From: Candidatus Thalassarchaeaceae archaeon
Lineage (GTDB): Archaea; Thermoplasmatota; Poseidoniia; Poseidoniales; Thalassarchaeaceae
Direction of reading: 5' to 3'
NCBI GenBank assembly: GCA_029250665.1
Contig: JAQXEV010000006.1
Coordinates: 1 to 44,755 of the forward strand
Length of the DNA stretch: 44,755 nucleotides
The translations under genes were made by a program, and so were the position numbers. Each line of letters starts with the position of its first letter. The stretch's first letter is position 1. This document shows positions 1,527-26,765 of this stretch, piece by piece. The notes under the pieces are model-generated. The model searched no databases. It was not told the origin of the DNA and saw only the letters and a program-made list of their open reading frames with translations.

Positions 1527-3035
1527 ATGCTTGAGTCGACTACAGAGGGCGCGGAATTAGCCGCATCAGGTGCTTTGACGCTGGACAGATTCGGAGCCGA
1601 ATCCGCACGAATTGGAAGAGAACTTGCAGACCAATATCATCGCTATCATATCGAGACAGAAGATGTCGACGATGTAGATCCGCTACCGCATAGATTCCTC
1701 GTCGAAGTCGGCAAATTCGGATTGGCCAAGTTCATCGTCTCAGAGGTATTACATTACGGACTAAATCCTGAGGTCATCCTTTCTCGACCTTGTACATATG
1801 GAGTATTCTCTGGTCCAGTCGGTGGCTTTGTTCCTCGACCAAAACTATGCGTCGGTTGCCTTCGCTGCACCGTTCAACATCCGGATTTCGTCAAGGTGCT
1901 ACCGAATCCCAAGAGGGTTGCTCTCGGAGATTCGTACACCACTCACGGACATATTGCAGCTATTGATGAAGAATCGAAGAAGGGCTTGGTGCCTGTCCGT
2001 GGACAAGGTTACCGCGGCCGATTCGGTGGACCTGGGTTCGATGGTATGCTGACGGATATGTCTGAGATTGTCCGCCCAAGCAGAGATGGAATTCACGGCC
2101 GCGAACTCATCGGCACATCCGTCGATATTGGTACCAAACCGATGCACCTCTCATTTGATGAGGACGGAAATTTGCAAGGTAAGGCTCCGAACATGTTCAC
2201 TATTCAGGTGCCATTCGTATTCGATGTTCCACCTGGAGATTTGGGGACAGCCAAGTTGGCAAAGGTACTCGATTCAACCAGCAAGAGAATCGATACTTTG
2301 GCTTGCATGAAAGCAGCAGACGTAATTGAGATGGGAATGGATTCTCCGAACATCGTCCCAGTGATTCCAAAGGAAACACCGGAGATGGTAGAGATGTTCC
2401 CAGCCGCACGACTCATCGAACTCGATGGCTGGGACAAGGATTCGCTGGACGCGGCGAGGTTGGCAACAGACGCTCTGATTGGAGTTCGAATCTGTTTCAC
2501 AGAAGGTTGGCAAGATCGTATGATGAAGGCAGTCAACAACCGCGTAGACGTCGTTCATCTCAACGCAGACCTACATGGCCGCGGTTTCGACGACGGCCGA
2601 TTCATCTCTGATTTACTCAAGGAAGCCCACATGCTCCTAATCGAGAAGGGCTGCCGAGATATGGTGACTCTAATCGGTGCGGGCGGACTCGTCAGCGCCG
2701 ACCACTTACCAAAGGCAATAATCAGTGGACTCGACGCAGTCGCACTCGACCTTCCAGTCCTATTCGCACTGCAAGGTCGCTCGCATGGGTCTCTAGTCGA
2801 TCGCGAGCAAGTACGAGGAACCCTCCCGAAGAAGATGACGCAGGAATGGGCCGAACAGCGGCTCACCAATCTGTGCGCTTCATGGCGTGACCAGCTGCTC
2901 GAAATCCTCGGAGCGATGGGAATCCGTGAGGCGCGCCGACTCCGCGGAGAATTCGGCCGCTCAATGATAGTGAGCCATCTCGAGGACGAAGCCTTCGAAG
3001 GGATTGAGGGATATGTTAGTGGAGGTGCTATCTGA
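1527..3035 (+). CDS. Glutamate-synthase FMN-barrel paralogue with ferredoxin-like motif (degenerate GltB2-like)
   Basis: 502 residues. The C-terminal half follows the glutamate synthase FMN-domain fold: it has GAGGLVSADHLPKAI where the next gene has SGGVRTADDIAKAI, and the C-terminal helices (EWAEQRL-NL) match the next gene closely. It lacks the FMN loop GGTGA and the downstream cysteine cluster found in its neighbour. Instead, an N-terminal segment has Cys108-x2-Cys111-x2-Cys114-x3-His118-Pro119, a ferredoxin-type motif with the fourth Cys replaced by His; Cys89 is another possible ligand. The TGA stop overlaps the next ATG (TGATG at 3033-3037), so the two are translationally coupled. Likely a structural or electron-relay subunit rather than a second catalytic barrel; the exact role is unknown. 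Confidence 0.75.
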   Translation: MLESTTEGAELAASGALTLDRFGAESARIGRELADQYHRYHIETEDVDDVDPLPHRFLVEVGKFGLAKFIVSEVLHYGLNPEVILSRPCTYGVFSGPVGGFVPRPKLCVGCLRCTVQHPDFVKVLPNPKRVALGDSYTTHGHIAAIDEESKKGLVPVRGQGYRGRFGGPGFDGMLTDMSEIVRPSRDGIHGRELIGTSVDIGTKPMHLSFDEDGNLQGKAPNMFTIQVPFVFDVPPGDLGTAKLAKVLDSTSKRIDTLACMKAADVIEMGMDSPNIVPVIPKETPEMVEMFPAARLIELDGWDKDSLDAARLATDALIGVRICFTEGWQDRMMKAVNNRVDVVHLNADLHGRGFDDGRFISDLLKEAHMLLIEKGCRDMVTLIGAGGLVSADHLPKAIISGLDAVALDLPVLFALQGRSHGSLVDREQVRGTLPKKMTQEWAEQRLTNLCASWRDQLLEILGAMGIREARRLRGEFGRSMIVSHLEDEAFEGIEGYVSGGAI

Positions 3036-4435
3036 TGTCAATTATACAGGAATTCAAGGATGCATACAAGGGCAAGGTGCAATTGCCGAGCGAAGAATTA
3101 CTTACCAAAACGACCGGTCTGATGCAGGACGGAATGCGCGCTCGAGCGATGGGCGATTACATCTCACCAGAGGCTCTTGGTGACGCACGCTGGACTGACG
3201 AGTTGATTCTCTCAACTTGGTATATGGCTGAAACTGGTGAAATTCCTGAGGGGCTCAATTACAAAACCGGAAAATCTGACGGCGGCTTCGACAGATTGGA
3301 TTTCAAGTTCTTACCTGAAAGCGATTGGCTCGAGCACTCGGATTCGATTACAACCAAGCTAGATCTAAATCGTCGTGGCGATGCCAAGAACAAGCTGACA
3401 ACTGACATTCCATGGTATGGTGGCGGTATGTCGTATGGTTCGGTATCGGTCAATGTGATGATGTCGCGCGCCCGCAACGCGGCGCGCTGGAATTCATTCA
3501 TGTCAACCGGTGAAGGTGGTTATCCACCGCAATTGATGGAATGCAAGGAGAACGTCATCACTCAGGTTGCAACCGGTTATTTCGGCGTCGAGGAAGAGAC
3601 GATTCAGGCGGCGCCGATTGTCGAATTCAAGTACGCACAGGGCGCGAAACCTGGACTCGGGGGTCATTTGCTTGCAGCAAAGGCTGGCGAAGAGGTTGCG
3701 AAGTTGCGGGGAAGCGTTCCTTTCGTCAGTCTATTCAGCCCATTCCCATTCCATTCGACTTACTCGGTCGAGGACCATTCGAAGCATCTCGATTGGATCG
3801 AGACCGTCAATCCAACTGCTCTGCTTTCGGTCAAGGTGAGTACCCCTCACGATGTCGACATGGTCGCAGTCGGTTCTTTCTACGCCGGTGCGCACATCAT
3901 CCATCTCGATGGTTCCTATGGCGGCACCGGAGCAGCACCTGAAATCGCCAAGAAGAATATCGCTATGCCAATTGAATTGGCGATTCCGAAGGTGCACAAA
4001 TTCCTCCAAGCCGAGGGTGTGCGTGACCGTGTCACGCTCATCGCCAGTGGCGGAGTCCGCACGGCCGACGATATTGCCAAGGCAATCGCACTCGGCGCCG
4101 ATGGCTGTGTCCTCGGTACCACCGATCTTGTCGGTTTAGGCTGCACCCGCTGCTCAAATTGTGAGGGCGGACCATCCGGTCGTGGCTGTCCATGGGGCTT
4201 GACCACGACCGATATCGAGTTGCAGGAATGGGTGCAGCCGGATTGGGCTGCCGAGCGACTCAACAATCTCTACACTGCAATGCAGTACCGGCTGCGCGAC
4301 ATCCTTCGGCAACTCGGACTATCAGATGTCTCAGAATTACGCGGCCGCACTGATCTCCTTCGATACATGGGTAAGGACGAGGCTGCCAGGGCGGCAGGCA
4401 GAGCCGCGGGCATCGGATTGGAGGAGATCGAATGA
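3035..4435 (+). CDS. gltB2: Glutamate synthase FMN/Fe-S domain protein (GltB2)
   Basis: 466 residues, matching the FMN-binding (beta/alpha)8 domain of glutamate synthase, which converts 2-oxoglutarate plus channelled ammonia to glutamate. Hallmarks seen: STGEGGYPPQL near 157-167, AKPGLGGHL near 204-212, the FMN phosphate loop SYGGTGAAPE near 294-303, SGGVRTADDIAKAIALGADG near 338-357, and an Fe-S cluster motif with Cys370, Cys373, Cys376 and Cys385 followed by PWG. In bacterial enzymes the equivalent domain is internal to a ~1500-residue chain; here it is free-standing, as in several archaea. The gene overlaps the preceding stop (TGATG) and the following start (ATGA at 4432-4435), which implies coordinated synthesis of all three subunits. 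Confidence 0.9.
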   Translation: MSIIQEFKDAYKGKVQLPSEELLTKTTGLMQDGMRARAMGDYISPEALGDARWTDELILSTWYMAETGEIPEGLNYKTGKSDGGFDRLDFKFLPESDWLEHSDSITTKLDLNRRGDAKNKLTTDIPWYGGGMSYGSVSVNVMMSRARNAARWNSFMSTGEGGYPPQLMECKENVITQVATGYFGVEEETIQAAPIVEFKYAQGAKPGLGGHLLAAKAGEEVAKLRGSVPFVSLFSPFPFHSTYSVEDHSKHLDWIETVNPTALLSVKVSTPHDVDMVAVGSFYAGAHIIHLDGSYGGTGAAPEIAKKNIAMPIELAIPKVHKFLQAEGVRDRVTLIASGGVRTADDIAKAIALGADGCVLGTTDLVGLGCTRCSNCEGGPSGRGCPWGLTTTDIELQEWVQPDWAAERLNNLYTAMQYRLRDILRQLGLSDVSELRGRTDLLRYMGKDEAARAAGRAAGIGLEEIE

Positions 4436-7002
4436 TCGACCCGAACACCTTCATCGATGCGCGACGCGCAATGACTGCATCCCATCCCAAGTTTGAGCGG
4501 CGCGATGAAGACGCAGCCGAAGGCGGCTGTGGAGTGGTCGGCCTCGCCTGCGAAATACCAGTTGCTGGACGCCACTTATTCGACTCACTCGAACAGATGC
4601 GTAACCGAGGTAACGGCAAGGGCGGCGGAGTCGCTATGGTCGGCCTCAATCCAGACCAATTCGGCACCGACCGCGAAACCCTTGCTTCGACCTACCTCTA
4701 CGCGGTCGCCTACCTCAACAACGAGGTGCGATCCGGAGTTGAAGCACTCATCACAGAAGCCTACAATCTCCATCACACGCACGAGATGCCTACCCTCCCA
4801 ACTTGGCAACAAGACCTGCCAGCACTCGAGGTCCAACCTCCATCTGTAGTCTGCTACTTTGTCACACCGAGGGCTGACAAAGTCGACGAATTCATCGAAA
4901 ACCAACTCTCGGCAGTTGTCGACGCGGCTGACCGAGCCGCGGTCGAAGAGGAATACACCTTCCACATCACTCATTCACTGAACGTCGAATTCTACGCCAA
5001 AGACGGGCGAACTGACGCATTTGTTTTGAGCCACGGCCGAGACATTTTGATTTTGAAAATCGTTGGATATGCAGAGGATGTCATCCGCTACTACCGTCTC
5101 GACGATATGACTGCACACGTCTGGATAGGCCACCACCGCTACCCTACGCGCGGCAGAGTCACGCACCCTGGTGGGGCACACCCCTTTGGTCAGGGAATCG
5201 ATTGCGCGCTTGTTCACAACGGAGATTTCTCGAATTATGTATCGGTGAAAGATTACCTCGGTCAGAGAGGGATGGAACCACTTTTCTTCACCGATACCGA
5301 GGTCGCTGCGTTGGCTTTCGATCTACATCGCCGGGTCTATGGATACACGCTTGAACATGTGATTGAGAGCTTGGCACCGACCAGCGAACTCGACTTTATC
5401 ATGCTGCCAAAGGAGAAGCAAGTGGTTTACGAGGCGATTCAGAAGACGCATATCCACGGTTCGCCCGATGGTCCATGGTTCTTCATCATCGCACAATCCG
5501 ATGGTCCCACTCATCGATTGCTTGGGATTACTGACACATCGATGCTGCGCCCGCAGGTTTTCGCTTACCAGCGCGGCGATGTTGGAATAGCATTCTGTGG
5601 TTCCGAGAAGCAGGTTATCGATGCAGTTCTCGACTCGCTCGCCTCCGAGGATACTCGATTTTGGCGGCGCGCAGATGAATATTGGAATGCGCGCGGTGGG
5701 TCATATACCGATGGCGGCGCATTCATGTTCGATGTTACGCCGAACGCTGACGGAAGCAAGACGTTGGAGATGCGTGACAAGTTCGGCGCAATTGTCAACA
5801 CTACTCCAGAGGGTGATTACAAACTCATGCCAGCTGGCGAGTATGCATTCACTCTCGATACTCCTAGGGCCACTTTCGATGGGCTGGTTGCAGGACTTCC
5901 ATCGATGGATTGGTCTGAGGCTCGAGCCTGTCTAGAAGCAATCGAGAACGCATCTGGAGACAAGGGTCGAACTTGGGTTTGGGATACTCTGACTCTACTA
6001 CTCGACCGCCGCTACAATTGTGGCAGCCTACGCGAATCGGTCTGGAAGGACCTCGTCGAGGCTGCCTTGATTCGCACGGTGGCATCTTCCGCAGCCTATC
6101 CGTGCGATGCATACAATGGACAGAAAACGCTCGGCCACAGGCCTGAGCCAGCGAGCGTATCACAAGCGATTGTTGTCGACGCTCGCCCATATCCAATCGA
6201 AGGAATCGAATCGCTAGCCCTAGAACTCGTGGCTCTTCACCGAATGGGCTGGAAGCGATTCGTCGTCATCAATTGCCAAGGTCACCGATTCATTGGAAAC
6301 GGTTTCGGCCCAGCTACAAGCGATGTGCGAATCGACGTTTTGGGCGCGGCAGGAGATTATCTCGGAAGCGGCAACGATGGTATGACAATCCACATGCATG
6401 GCAATGGACAGGACCAAATCGCTCAGATTCACAAGTCTGGCGAGTTGGTCATTCACGGTGATGTCGGTCAGTGCTACGGCTACGGGTCGAAGGGCGGAGA
6501 GATGTTTGTTCTCGGTAATGCTGCGGGTCGTCCAATGATCAATTCTGTGGGCGGACCACGTTTGGTAATCAACGGCACTGCGCTGGATTACTTGGCTGAA
6601 TCATTCATGGCTGGAGATCCGCTTGACGGCGGTGGCTTCGTCATCATCAACGGCCTGAAGTTTGGAGTCGATGGAAGCATGAGCGCTCTCGAGACTCCGT
6701 ATCCTGGCAGCAATTTGTTTTCGTTGTCTAGTGGCGGGGCGATTTATGTTCGTGACCCGCACGATAGGTTGTCTGCTTCGCAATTGAACGGTGGCGAATT
6801 CACCGAGCTGACCGAGGCTGATTGGGAGGTTATTGAGCCACTATTGCTGCGCAATGAGGAACACTTCGATATTCCACTAGAGCGGTTGTTGACGGTCGGT
6901 GGCAAGCGCCGCAGTCCATACAATGTCTATCGCAAGATTTCCCCTGTGAAGTCGAAGACCTTGCACGCTGAGGCGGCTTGGGTCGGGCATCATGACGATT
7001 GA
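4432..7002 (+). CDS. Glutamate synthase glutaminase (GATase II) fused to GXGXG domain
   Basis: 856 residues. The N-terminal part is a class II glutamine amidotransferase: the expected nucleophile is Cys33 in GGCGVVGLA, implying removal of a 32-residue propeptide. GHHRYPTRG and HNGDFSNY supply the substrate-binding Arg and the oxyanion Asn/Gly. The C-terminal part (roughly residues 620-790) is the right-handed beta-helix GXGXG domain, with repeats such as GSGNDGMTIHMHG, GDVGQCYGYGSKGG and GNAAGRPMIN. Archaea often encode these two domains separately (GltB1 and GltB3); here they are fused and the FMN domains are left out. The start ATG overlaps the previous stop. No GltD-like NADPH subunit is adjacent. 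An N-methylglutamate-synthase-like role is an alternative that sequence alone does not exclude. Confidence 0.88.
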   Translation: MIDPNTFIDARRAMTASHPKFERRDEDAAEGGCGVVGLACEIPVAGRHLFDSLEQMRNRGNGKGGGVAMVGLNPDQFGTDRETLASTYLYAVAYLNNEVRSGVEALITEAYNLHHTHEMPTLPTWQQDLPALEVQPPSVVCYFVTPRADKVDEFIENQLSAVVDAADRAAVEEEYTFHITHSLNVEFYAKDGRTDAFVLSHGRDILILKIVGYAEDVIRYYRLDDMTAHVWIGHHRYPTRGRVTHPGGAHPFGQGIDCALVHNGDFSNYVSVKDYLGQRGMEPLFFTDTEVAALAFDLHRRVYGYTLEHVIESLAPTSELDFIMLPKEKQVVYEAIQKTHIHGSPDGPWFFIIAQSDGPTHRLLGITDTSMLRPQVFAYQRGDVGIAFCGSEKQVIDAVLDSLASEDTRFWRRADEYWNARGGSYTDGGAFMFDVTPNADGSKTLEMRDKFGAIVNTTPEGDYKLMPAGEYAFTLDTPRATFDGLVAGLPSMDWSEARACLEAIENASGDKGRTWVWDTLTLLLDRRYNCGSLRESVWKDLVEAALIRTVASSAAYPCDAYNGQKTLGHRPEPASVSQAIVVDARPYPIEGIESLALELVALHRMGWKRFVVINCQGHRFIGNGFGPATSDVRIDVLGAAGDYLGSGNDGMTIHMHGNGQDQIAQIHKSGELVIHGDVGQCYGYGSKGGEMFVLGNAAGRPMINSVGGPRLVINGTALDYLAESFMAGDPLDGGGFVIINGLKFGVDGSMSALETPYPGSNLFSLSSGGAIYVRDPHDRLSASQLNGGEFTELTEADWEVIEPLLLRNEEHFDIPLERLLTVGGKRRSPYNVYRKISPVKSKTLHAEAAWVGHHDD

Positions 7003-7013
7003 TTGGTGCTGGC

Positions 7014-7976
7014 TCAAGCAAATTTCTTGGCGATGCTAACAACCTCGTCAGCACAACCCCAAGACAGAGTTACTCCCGCTCCACCATGTCCGTAATTGTG
7101 GATTACAGGGATTCCGTTGTCGAGTATTTCAGATTCTAGGCGCACCTCGCTGCGCGAGGGGCGAAGACCGACGGCTTCTGCGACGATTTTGCTTCGGTCG
7201 AGTTCTGGCCAGACCGCTTCGCACTTGGTGAGAATCTCTTCGCGGTCGGCCTCACGAATTTCCAAATTCCAATCATCGACTTGTGCGGTACCGCCGAGCA
7301 CCGTGCAGTCGCGACGCGCTATGGTGTAGGTCAGTGTCTCAGGCTGTTGGTCGAAGCGACCGTAACCAGGGTCTTGCTCGATGTAAATGACCTGTCCACG
7401 AACAGGGTGTAATTCGGAATCGTCGCACAATTCACGCGCACCGATTCCGCTGCAATTTACTACGAGGTCGGCCTTAATCTCACTAAGGTCGCCGACCTCA
7501 CCGCTCTCAACAATTCCACCAAGTTCGCGTGTACGTGTGATCAGCCATGGCATGTAATACGGCATTTCGATGATTGGCGATTCAAATTCCCAACCGAAGA
7601 CCCAAGGCTTCGGAATCTCATCGGAGTCAAGCACACGGAAATGCGTGATATCTTCTCTCCAACCAGGCAACTCGACCCGCTCGCGCAGATATTCACGCCC
7701 TTTTCTCATGGTAATCCCTGCAGATAATTCTCCCTTGCCCAAACGCAACAATTCTGCATAGGTCTCGGCTCCCCACCGATCTGTCTTTTCCACCGGATGA
7801 GCAAGGAAAGGATACCAAAGTGCGGCAGCACGGTCTGAGACCAAATTAGGAGAGAACTCGCGTGCGATTATGCGGACTGAATGACCGTCCTCAAGCAAGC
7901 GAATCGCGCAAGAAAGTCCCGACACACCCGCGCCAACAACAACACAATCCACTCGCGAGCGTAGTCGAACAACCAC
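7014..7976 (-). CDS. FAD-dependent D-amino-acid-oxidase-family protein
   Basis: 320 residues. The N-terminus carries the dinucleotide-binding GAGVSG (residues 15-20) followed by the usual helix and an acidic strand end. RAAALWYPF and, near the C-terminus, NYGHGGAGVTLSWG are typical of the D-amino-acid/D-aspartate oxidase branch of the DAO family, where the latter segment contacts FAD. The central GIGARELCDDSELHPVRGQ also fits that branch. These enzymes oxidatively deaminate D-amino acids using oxygen and release ammonia. It is convergent with the glutamate synthase genes (11 bp between stops), so a shared nitrogen-recycling role is possible but not shown. Substrate unknown. No signal peptide, so cytosolic. 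Confidence 0.85.
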   Translation of the reverse strand: MVVRLRSRVDCVVVGAGVSGLSCAIRLLEDGHSVRIIAREFSPNLVSDRAAALWYPFLAHPVEKTDRWGAETYAELLRLGKGELSAGITMRKGREYLRERVELPGWREDITHFRVLDSDEIPKPWVFGWEFESPIIEMPYYMPWLITRTRELGGIVESGEVGDLSEIKADLVVNCSGIGARELCDDSELHPVRGQVIYIEQDPGYGRFDQQPETLTYTIARRDCTVLGGTAQVDDWNLEIREADREEILTKCEAVWPELDRSKIVAEAVGLRPSRSEVRLESEILDNGIPVIHNYGHGGAGVTLSWGCADEVVSIAKKFA

Positions 7977-23921: not shown

Positions 23922-25895
23922 ATGGCCATCGTCAGTGTCTATATTGAGGAGGGTTGCATCACCTGTGATGCCTGTGAAGAGATACTTCCAGAAGTCTTCC
24001 ACGTGACCGATGATACTTGCTTCATCAATGCCGAAGTGAGGCTTGATGGTGGATACGATAGGAACGAAGGGAAGGCGGGATTGAAGCCTGAAACTCTAGC
24101 TTCATTCGAAGATGACCTTCTCGACGCTGCTGATGGTTGTCCAGTCGATGTGATCATCATCGTCGAAGGTGGAGTGGCGGCCGCTGCTGAGCCCGAGGAG
24201 GCTGCTGCACCAGCCGCTGAAGCTACTGTAGAACCTGTGGCGTCCGAGCCCATCGAAGTGTCTGGTGATGATATCGGTGAGTTGCTAAGTGTTGGTGACC
24301 GCAGCCTCGCGATTCTCTTTGGCTCACAATCTGGAAACTCTGAGGACCTCGCTGCGAAGTTTGCAAAGCAGGCTGCGGATTATGGCCTCGAAGGAACCGT
24401 CCATGATATGGATGGCTTCGATTTTGGTTCGCTGTCGGGTATGAAGAGAGTCCTCATCGTCTGTTCTACTTGGGGAGAGGGCGAAATGCCCGACAATGCT
24501 GAGGAGCTTTGGCAGACCTCAACGAAGGCTCCAGCCGGCACTCTGTCCGGAGTCCACTTCTCGGTCTGTGCTCTCGGTGATACGAGTTACGAATTCTTCT
24601 GTGAGTCTGGAAAGGAATGGGATGAGCAATTCGAGAAACTCGGTGCTACACGACTCGTGGAGCGCGTCGATTGTGATGTCGATTACGATGCACCAGCAGC
24701 CGCATGGGCTATCGATGCACTGGCTGCTCTAGCCGCCGTCGATGGCTCCGGCGTCTATCATGAAGATATGATTGAGGCGATCAAGGCTAACGCCGCTGGC
24801 GATGTTGGCGGCGCCGACGGTGAAGACGGATTCTCAGTACCTGATCTAACGGCCGCCACTGTACAGGCCGAAATCAGCATCTTCCGCTATGATCCAGAGC
24901 AGGCATCGACCGGTTCCGACACTTGGGTCTGTGCGATGCCGGGTCACCTGAGTCTGCTGGAAACTCTTCGAACCATCAAGAGCACACACGATGGTAGCCT
25001 GTCCTTCCGTGACGGGGCTGCCGACGACCCATCGACTGCAATCTGCGTCAATGGGAGATTGGTTCTCCCAGGCATGATTCGCCTCGACGCTGTCGCCCCG
25101 ACTCGCGATGGAGTTCTCAGTCTGCGAGTCGACCCACTACCTGGCTTCGAAGTCATTCGTGACCTCGTCGTCGATCATTGGCCGATGGAGCGCAGGCGCG
25201 AATCAACCGAACCATGGATGGTCGCCGCAACTCGAGAAGGGGCCGCTACCATGCAAGGCGCCATCGGAGTAATGGATCCGAATGTCGCTACAGCGTTACA
25301 CTCGATTACTGATTTCAGCAGTGCCGCCCTCCTTCAAGCATCATCCGACGCTGTTCCACATGCGAATGGCTACCTCGGCCCCTCTGTCCTCGCTTCTGCT
25401 TGGGCTCGCCGTAACGATCCACGTTCATCGCATTCATCGGTTGCCAGCCTTGATTCGATCCTTGGAAGTAAGAACGGAATCAAGGCTGAGACAGATTTAG
25501 CCAGTATTCGTCGGCAGAATGGATCCGGTGTAGTCATCTCAGAGGCTTTGCTTGACGCAAGGACGCACGTTCTCGAGCAGGACGCATTCACAGGGCGTCA
25601 CGGCAAGCATGTTTGGTGGTACGCTTGGACGCTGAAATCGAGTGGAAAGGTCAACGATACTGTCCTCTATCGACAAGTTCTCGGCCCGATTGGACTTATT
25701 GGAAATCTGACTTCAGGAGTCACTGCGCGAATGGTGACCGGATTCACGCGCACAGGTGGAGACATGTTCTACGATATGTTGGCGATGGTCGCTCCGCCCG
25801 CAGGATTAGGAAAGATGCCGCGGCAATTCAATTCATCAGTCGAGAACCATCATGAGGTCGTAGCAATTTTCAATGAGCTCGACGGGAGATTCTGA
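23922..25895 (+). CDS. Ferredoxin-flavodoxin-SdhB-like fusion with lost SdhB cluster ligands
   Basis: 657 residues in three modules. Residues 1-82: single [4Fe-4S] ferredoxin with Cys12, Cys15, Cys18 and Cys73-Pro. An Ala/Glu/Pro-rich linker follows (~85-115). Residues ~127-270: flavodoxin/FMN domain with LFGSQSGNSEDLA, CSTWGEGEMPD and ALGDTSYEFF. Residues ~315-657 track the succinate dehydrogenase/fumarate reductase iron-sulfur subunit: RYDPEQ, TIKSTHDGSLSFR, PLPGFEVIRDLVVD, then YLGPSVLASAWARRNDPR. All three cluster-binding regions have lost their ligands: the 2Fe-2S loop reads DGAADDPSTAIC and there is no Cys after residue 375. The next gene is coupled through TGAGGTGA (25893-25900). Probably a flavin/ferredoxin-based electron-transfer or regulatory protein; activity unknown. 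Confidence 0.75.
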   Translation: MAIVSVYIEEGCITCDACEEILPEVFHVTDDTCFINAEVRLDGGYDRNEGKAGLKPETLASFEDDLLDAADGCPVDVIIIVEGGVAAAAEPEEAAAPAAEATVEPVASEPIEVSGDDIGELLSVGDRSLAILFGSQSGNSEDLAAKFAKQAADYGLEGTVHDMDGFDFGSLSGMKRVLIVCSTWGEGEMPDNAEELWQTSTKAPAGTLSGVHFSVCALGDTSYEFFCESGKEWDEQFEKLGATRLVERVDCDVDYDAPAAAWAIDALAALAAVDGSGVYHEDMIEAIKANAAGDVGGADGEDGFSVPDLTAATVQAEISIFRYDPEQASTGSDTWVCAMPGHLSLLETLRTIKSTHDGSLSFRDGAADDPSTAICVNGRLVLPGMIRLDAVAPTRDGVLSLRVDPLPGFEVIRDLVVDHWPMERRRESTEPWMVAATREGAATMQGAIGVMDPNVATALHSITDFSSAALLQASSDAVPHANGYLGPSVLASAWARRNDPRSSHSSVASLDSILGSKNGIKAETDLASIRRQNGSGVVISEALLDARTHVLEQDAFTGRHGKHVWWYAWTLKSSGKVNDTVLYRQVLGPIGLIGNLTSGVTARMVTGFTRTGGDMFYDMLAMVAPPAGLGKMPRQFNSSVENHHEVVAIFNELDGRF

Positions 25896-25904
25896 GGTGA
25901 GAAA

Positions 25905-26765
25905 ATGGCTGTCAAATACGCTTACCACCCTGGAAATGTCGCCCACAGCAGCGCTCCCGAGGTTGCTGATACGATGGGCCCCTTGGCTCGCGCCTTGGAT
26001 ATCACTCTGGTTCCTTTACCGGGAGCTACCAGTTGCGGCGCCGGAATTGTAAGACAGGCTAACCGTCGCCTGCAGTTGACTCTCAATGCACGTACCTTTG
26101 CTATGGCAGAGGCACAGGGTCTGGATATCATGACTCCGTGTGCTGCGACGGCGGGTAATTTACACGAGGACCTGATGACTTTGAGGTCAGACCAAATTTT
26201 GCTGCAAGAAGTCAATGAGACTCTGCAGCGCACTTGTGGTTTGACGATGACAGGGGATGTTGCAGTTCACCACTTACTACACGCGGTTGTCGATGAGATT
26301 GGACTAGACAAGTTAGCGGATAAGGTCCGCAACCCGATTGATTTCGCGGTTGCTGGATATTACGGACCAAACATGCAGCAAGAAGGCGCTTGTGGCGGAG
26401 ATGATGTGTATGATCCAGATTATCTTGAGCAGTTAATTTCAGCTCTTGGTGGAACTCCAGTTAGCTGGGAGGCTCGGACTCAGAGTGTCGGCGTCCCTGG
26501 GATATTCAGTGAGGAGCCGACTGTGATGAAGCAAGCTGCTGAGGCTCTGTCCGAGGCTAAGGCTGAAGGTGCTGAGTTGATTGTCAGCGCTTGCAATCTT
26601 TCTCATACCGTTCTTGATGTATATCAGGGCAAGGCCGGTCGTGATACCGGACTTGCGACTAACATCCCAGTGATTCATCTGTGCGAGATGCTTGCTTTCG
26701 CTCTTGGTACACACAATAGCCGATTGGCTCTACTCAGGACTCGTATCGCTGTTATCGGTGACTGA
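25905..26765 (+). CDS. HdrB/SdhE-like (CCG-domain) protein with eroded cysteine motifs
   Basis: 286 residues with two CCG-type repeats as in heterodisulfide reductase HdrB and archaeal SdhC/E subunits. Repeat 1: YHPGN (family YxPGC), TSCGAG (family CCG), and PCAAT (family CxxC). Repeat 2: GYYGPN (family YxGC), SVGVPG (family CCG), and SACNLSHTVLD (family CxxC). Only Cys44, Cys79 and Cys230 keep a family position, so the non-cubane clusters of true HdrB should not form. The flanking scaffold (ANRRLQLTLNARTFAMAEAQG, DPDYLEQLISALGG) is well preserved, which argues for selection rather than decay. Its start lies 9 bp after the upstream fusion gene, so the two products probably act together. Confidence 0.72.
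   Translation: MAVKYAYHPGNVAHSSAPEVADTMGPLARALDITLVPLPGATSCGAGIVRQANRRLQLTLNARTFAMAEAQGLDIMTPCAATAGNLHEDLMTLRSDQILLQEVNETLQRTCGLTMTGDVAVHHLLHAVVDEIGLDKLADKVRNPIDFAVAGYYGPNMQQEGACGGDDVYDPDYLEQLISALGGTPVSWEARTQSVGVPGIFSEEPTVMKQAAEALSEAKAEGAELIVSACNLSHTVLDVYQGKAGRDTGLATNIPVIHLCEMLAFALGTHNSRLALLRTRIAVIGD

Follow-up and report, generated by a model that had tools for sequence, protein, structure and literature searches.

Why an archaeon should keep two glutamate synthase-like barrels side by side, one with a flavin site and one without, is the question raised by three genes of contig JAQXEV010000006.1. The stretch analyzed here (the window) comprises positions 1 to 44,755 of that contig, part of a 1.48-Mb assembly (GCA_029250665.1) of a Candidatus Thalassarchaeaceae archaeon; the genomes closest to it in the collection searched are assemblies of marine Poseidoniales/Thalassarchaeaceae. 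The three open reading frames (ORFs) lie on the plus strand and encode P1, a noncatalytic barrel of the flavin mononucleotide (FMN) type with an N-terminal four-cysteine site (1527 to 3035, 502 amino acids [aa]); P2, an FMN-binding glutamate synthase barrel (3035 to 4435, 466 aa); and P3, a class II glutaminase fused to a GXGXG beta-helix (4432 to 7002, 856 aa). P1 and P2 overlap by 1 nucleotide and P2 and P3 by 4, as in a single translationally coupled operon. We think, at a probability of roughly 0.68, that the products form a three-subunit glutamate synthase (glutamine:2-oxoglutarate amidotransferase, or GOGAT) of an unnamed subfamily. We favor that reading because P2 and P3 keep their cofactor and catalytic motifs, because gene order is kept and the glutamine synthetase gene glnA adjoins the operon in some bacteria, and because P1 is a paralogue of P2 with invariant cysteines that is naturally fused to P2 in the domain order of bacterial glutamate synthase (GltS), the source of the best PDB matches of a fused model.

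The catalytic subunits

P2 has what a glutamate synthase barrel needs. It matches the PF01645 FMN barrel with 284 bits, aligns with solved GltS at an E value of about 1e-49, and contains all the motifs of GltS-superfamily barrels (GMSxG, GEGG, QGAKPGxGG, GGTGA, and a cysteine cluster). The strand-1 FMN motif GMSYGS lies at 3425 to 3442, the FMN/2-oxoglutarate loop GGTGAAP at 3920 to 3940, and the Fe-S ligands C370, C373, C376, and C385, three of which GltS shares, at 4142 to 4189, all on the plus strand. GMS[YFL]GS and GGTGA are kept in nearly all P2 homologues, as is the C-x2-C-x2-C-xn-C cluster, from which one cysteine is missing in locus L105. Thus, the FMN loop and four-cysteine cluster that a previous reading of the letters alone (the sequence-only reading) had seen in P2 are near-universal features of its family.

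P3 likewise appears equipped for catalysis. It matches GATase_6 and GXGXG, and no barrel intervenes, which is the fusion that the sequence-only reading had described. Cys33 (4528 to 4530, plus strand) is a cysteine in 60 of 61 alignment rows and falls in a gap in the remaining one, and R59-G60, H235-R236-Y237, and N263-G264-D265 are similarly conserved. P3 therefore has the marks of a class II glutaminase, with N263-G264 as the oxyanion residues and Cys33 as a predicted N-terminal nucleophile, to be exposed by cleavage of a 32-residue propeptide. The GXGXG beta-helix occupies residues 620 to 782 (6289 to 6777, plus strand), at the C-terminal end as elsewhere in the GltS superfamily.

A barrel without flavin

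How P1 relates to P2 is not apparent from domain matches, as PF01645 covers only the C-terminal 100 or so residues of P1, with 22 bits. When the families were compared as profiles, however, P1 and P2 were homologous across 331 columns (hhalign 99.8%, E value 8e-30). P1 is thus a full-length paralogue of P2, and the C-terminal likeness noticed from the letters is one end of a longer one. A lone-chain model predicts a barrel (mean predicted local distance difference test [pLDDT] score, 86), and the PDB entries that it matches best are FMN-dependent hydroxyacid dehydrogenases and oxidases, with GltS lower in the list. A Foldseek search of viral structures returned nothing beyond generic FMN/IMPDH barrels.

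The (beta/alpha)8 barrel of P1 (residues 222 to 475; 2190 to 2951, plus strand) has lost its FMN ligands. As a reference we used 35 FMN-binding proteins (P2 proteins, GltS, archaeal GltB2, and MgsC), in which 65 columns reach a conservation of 90% or more. P1 proteins retain 9 of the 65, and we therefore consider P1 a dead barrel. Gone are GMSxG, GEGG, QGAKPGxGG, the C-terminal cysteine cluster, and GGTGA, which is indeed confined to P2, and the lysine of SVKVS is an arginine in 24 of 24 P1 proteins. In a tree of the two barrels, an analysis that the sequence-only reading had proposed, P1 and P2 each form one clade with 100/100 support, their basal branching is broadly similar, and the duplication is therefore old. 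The tree is unrooted, such that the nearness of GltS or archaeal GltB2 to P2 cannot be read from it. Because P1 stands in a separate clade and has no FMN site, we reject the possibility that it is an FMN-binding GltB2, and the noncatalytic barrel of the sequence-only reading survives the test that this reading had set for it.

P1 may nevertheless have cofactor ligands of another kind. Whereas the sequence-only reading denied it a four-cysteine cluster, C89, C108, C111, and C114 form a site of its own near the N terminus (residues 89 to 114; 1791 to 1868, plus strand), and all 61 of the homologues that cover this part of the protein have them. Directly after the second cysteine motif, the usual residue is His, Tyr, or Phe. 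The segment C89 plus C108-xx-C111-xx-C114 aligns with a full dicluster ferredoxin in basal P1 proteins (L013 and L014), which carry two full ferredoxin motifs. The cysteines that P1 retains correspond to the three of motif II and the fourth of motif I, which together ligate one cluster in a two-cluster ferredoxin. The N terminus of P1 matches a ferredoxin reduced to one cluster, and we infer from the four spaced cysteines that it binds a single [4Fe-4S] cluster.

P1 and the central domain of GltS

What a dead barrel might do is suggested by GltS, in which the FMN domain is preceded by a central domain that has been called a truncated barrel; whether that domain arose by FMN-barrel duplication or independently is an open question (PMC8097209). 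The order of P1 and then P2 parallels that of the two GltS domains. Natural P1-P2 fusions occur in L015 (840 aa), L095 (970 aa), and L111 (809 aa), each in GltS order, and when a model of fused L095 was searched with Foldseek, the top seven PDB matches were all GltS (E value about 1e-24, 757 to 953 columns). In L015, the P1 half is the best match of the fusion to PF04898 (Glu_syn_central). PF04898 also matches basal and Bathyarchaeal P1 (L110 as well as L015), but FMN barrels match it too, and the P1 of the window does not.

The most conserved arm of P1 sits where GltS and archaeal GltB2 have QVTNPxIDPLRE. Aligned by eye, P1 residues 176 to 197 (TDMSEIVRPSRDGIHGRELIGT; 2052 to 2117, plus strand) take the position of QVTNPPIDPLRE in the central domain of bacterial GltS, and the counterparts are SEIVRPTRDGIHGRE in P1 and QVTNPSIDPLRE before the barrel in archaeal GltB2. 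By the same alignment, P2 of the window has no arm of any of these types. Residues 182 to 190 are invariant or nearly so, yet their pLDDT is below 50 in the lone-chain model, which would fit a segment that becomes ordered only on a partner. Alternatively, P1 might bind a new ligand and act as a second barrel for catalysis or substrate binding instead of as a scaffold and electron-entry unit. Such strong conservation of the arm (DMSEIVRPTRDGIHGRE) and the uniform arginine in place of the SVKVS lysine are what a new ligand site might show, but the arm equally corresponds in position to a motif of the noncatalytic GltS central domain, and we regard such a ligand-binding role as unlikely.

The sequence-only reading had two proposals for P1, that it stands in for the GltS central domain or that it is a second subunit for electron entry, and the evidence favors a combination. 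Gene order, fusions, the PF04898 match in L015, and arm position speak for the former, though the sequence evidence for an origin shared with the central domain is weak. The invariant ferredoxin-type site and the dicluster of basal relatives speak for the latter, with the cluster itself predicted. Together these data support, without proving, the idea that P1 is a separate "central domain" plus an electron-entry module. An FMN-less duplicate of an FMN barrel thus lives on as a partner protein in its own right, strictly conserved and with fused intermediates, and it becomes possible to test how the GltS central domain arose.

Distribution

The operon is not peculiar to the window. Relatives of P1 occur in at least 551 genome loci, and P1-P2-P3 is conserved in many archaeal and bacterial phyla. 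Among 80 loci kept for counts of gene order, P2 adjoins P1 in 77, with two of the three exceptions at contig ends, and P3 is present in 72, with seven of the eight exceptions at contig ends. In the sole other exception, L101, the P1 gene is split and P2 lies elsewhere on a Chloroflexota chromosome recorded as one contig (CP070785.1), which an assembly error or a rearrangement might explain. The sequence-only reading was right about the three-gene layout and P2 motifs but mistaken about the cysteines of P1, and the rearrangement that it described is not particular to this genome. Given the retention of P1 across many phyla with 34 invariant columns, we also reject a local rearrangement or pseudogene. 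The family is widespread yet unnamed: the P1 proteins checked matched no NCBIfam model, a plasmid search for P1 gave no match, and we found no description of the operon in the literature. In one Anaerolineales genome (G204, L075), the P1 match reads through one TGA.

Relation to known systems

Which known enzyme the operon most resembles depends on the feature compared. Like bacterial GltS (Azospirillum; 6s6s and 1ea0), it encodes a class II glutaminase, an FMN barrel, a GXGXG helix, and an FMN-less barrel ahead of the FMN barrel. Unlike GltS, it is split over three genes with the glutaminase joined to GXGXG, its FMN-less barrel has a four-cysteine site, and no GltD-like gene was recognized as a recurrent neighbor among the flanking ORFs; three ORFs, with no PF04898 match in P1 of the window, are not the single four-domain chain of bacterial GltB. 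Archaeal-type GltS is a fusion of a dicluster ferredoxin with the FMN synthase domain (PMC2483277). Such proteins (L016, L019, and L021) have ferredoxin, arm, and barrel in order in one chain, whereas in the window ferredoxin and arm are on the dead barrel and FMN is on another chain: P2 has no ferredoxin motifs and P1 has no FMN site. Basal L013 and L014 differ from the window in still having ferredoxin motifs on both chains.

N-methylglutamate synthase (MgsABC/GlxBCD; L118 and L119) also distributes glutaminase, GXGXG, and FMN-barrel modules over separate genes, and the operon might encode that enzyme or a related synthase of GltS type that uses another amine donor. It shares its three domain types with the set of MgsA, MgsB, and MgsC. 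The comparison, which the sequence-only reading had suggested, nevertheless separates them. P2 and MgsC fall into different clades, each with 100/100 support; Mgs has a single barrel and no counterpart of P1; and its glutaminase and GXGXG domains are on separate genes. Moreover, the Mgs operons inspected adjoin glnT, a PF00120-type gene, whereas 23 of 23 operon-bearing genomes in the family of the window lack PF00120, and the window genome thus has no linked glnT-type gamma-glutamylmethylamide synthetase. We rejected N-methylglutamate synthase on the separate clade and the missing PF00120 gene, and we consider a different amine donor very unlikely.

How a three-subunit glutamate synthase might work

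If P1, P2, and P3 form a glutamate synthase, conserved residues suggest how the work would be divided. P3, once Cys33 is released, would hydrolyze glutamine and hand on ammonia, and P2 would bind 2-oxoglutarate at FMN, where the imino acid would be reduced to glutamate. P1, an old and inactive duplicate of P2, would relay electrons from a donor through one [4Fe-4S] cluster to the P2 cluster and FMN. More tentatively, P1 may pack beside P2 as the GltS central domain does beside the FMN domain, line the ammonia tunnel, and extend its arm into the P2 site.

Several observations weigh against a glutamate synthase of this design. The fused L095 model superimposes on GltS with a TM-score of 0.34 to 0.36 and has a predicted TM-score (pTM) of 0.55, so the relative placing of the barrels is tentative, and profile comparison of P1 with the GltS central domain was not significant (hhalign 2.4%). 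Among the flanking ORFs, the rest of the genome not having been searched, no GltD-like or ferredoxin gene was recognized as a constant neighbor, and we dropped the idea of a recurrent redox partner gene beside the operon. An FAD-oxidase_C and dicluster Fe-S protein (GlcD/GlcF-like) is encoded directly before P1 only in basal L013 (2843 to 4159, minus strand) and L014. Finally, main-type operons tend toward genomes without glutamine synthetase (GS), the opposite of what a GS-GOGAT cycle predicts.

Alternation with glutamine synthetase

We scored GS as a PF00120 gene in 60 genomes of the family of the window; neither these counts nor those for other groups below are corrected for kinship. P1 is present in 23 of the 60, none of which has PF00120, while of the 37 without P1, 33 have PF00120 and 4 have neither (Fisher, 7.5e-13). 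Unexpectedly, then, operon and GS do not co-occur in the family, and both states are found within five genera (g1, g3, g4, g5, and g93). The GS of related marine archaea is GSII (GlnII, 335 aa), an ATP-dependent ligase unrelated to the operon products that also acts on glutamine and glutamate, and the two occupy the same chromosomal site, bounded by an MFS gene (2 to 1255 in the window, minus strand) and a DAO gene (7014 to 7976, minus strand), then PrsW, DUF92, and further genes (L124 to L130). Independently, an MGII contig has been reported to carry a type II GS next to genes for DAO, a serine protease, and an aspartate aminotransferase (PMC6741140). Incomplete metagenome-assembled genomes do not fit as the cause of the missing GS, given that GS is missing in 23 of 23 genomes, that in the loci inspected the operon itself fills the GS site, and that GS is also missing from a single-contig chromosome (CP075367.1, L070).

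The pattern extends beyond the family, if unevenly. In a phylum sample, GS is absent from the 9 genomes with main-type P1 and present in 125 of the 136 others; genomes with basal-type P1 (G042, G062, and G083) have it. GS is missing in 13 of 14 Bathyarchaeia with P1 versus 14 of 107 without and, more weakly, in 9 of 18 Anaerolineales with P1 versus 14 of 103 without, in sets for which genome completeness is not given. Conversely, of 50 genomes that carry the operon outside the family, 21 encode GS, and in three bacterial loci (L063, L095, and L111) glnA lies directly beside the operon on the same strand, which favors an ordinary role in a GS-GOGAT cycle at those loci. A genome from another family of the order (G103, L018) has a member of the P2 family that is cut off at a contig end, and it too lacks GS.

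One explanation is that the complex runs forward in glutamine scavengers, in which cells that carry the operon and have lost GS import glutamine or peptides and recover glutamate; the shared site would then stem from the exchange of cassettes between conserved flanks. Being a physiological version of the three-subunit glutamate synthase, it is compatible with that reading. Exchange in place, the missing GS of operon carriers, and an ABC-transporter ATPase-type gene upstream of many operon loci of the family are all in its favor. Scavenging does not explain, however, why loss of GS needs gain of the operon in every carrier of the family, and 57 of the 60 genomes already have glutamate dehydrogenase. 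We hold it tentatively, as a possibility somewhat short of even.

More radically, the complex might replace GS, converting two glutamates to glutamine and 2-oxoglutarate independently of ATP, while electrons pass out by way of the P2 FMN and the P1 cluster to an acceptor with a potential at or above that of quinones. Mutual exclusion at one site, its repetition in Bathyarchaeia and to a lesser degree in Anaerolineales, and retention of class I glutamine amidotransferases in an operon-bearing GS-less genome (8, versus 6 and 7 in GS-containing congeners) count in favor of replacement. The couple of 2-oxoglutarate plus glutamine with two glutamates has a potential of about -0.06 to -0.07 V, at which an acceptor of quinone level could draw the reaction in the glutamine-forming direction. 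We know of no GltS that runs physiologically in reverse, however, amide formation by the glutaminase half would have to proceed without ATP, and the bacterial glnA loci and the GS-containing carriers outside the family speak against replacement. Both scavenging and glutamine formation fit the genomic data, but we judge glutamine formation very unlikely. The physiological direction in GS-less archaea is nonetheless the more interesting question, as replacement, if true, would be an ATP-independent route to glutamine. Many of these marine archaea keep glutamine-dependent enzymes without a recognizable route of making glutamine. As the operon and GS exchange in place in these abundant organisms, annotation of their ammonia assimilation is probably wrong or incomplete.

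Other genes of the window

Farther along the window, an unusual redox fusion of 657 aa (23922 to 25895, plus strand) combines Fer4_13, flavodoxin, and SdhB-type Fer2_3 domains and is a possible electron carrier. A 286-aa CCG-domain protein is encoded beside it (25905 to 26765, plus strand).

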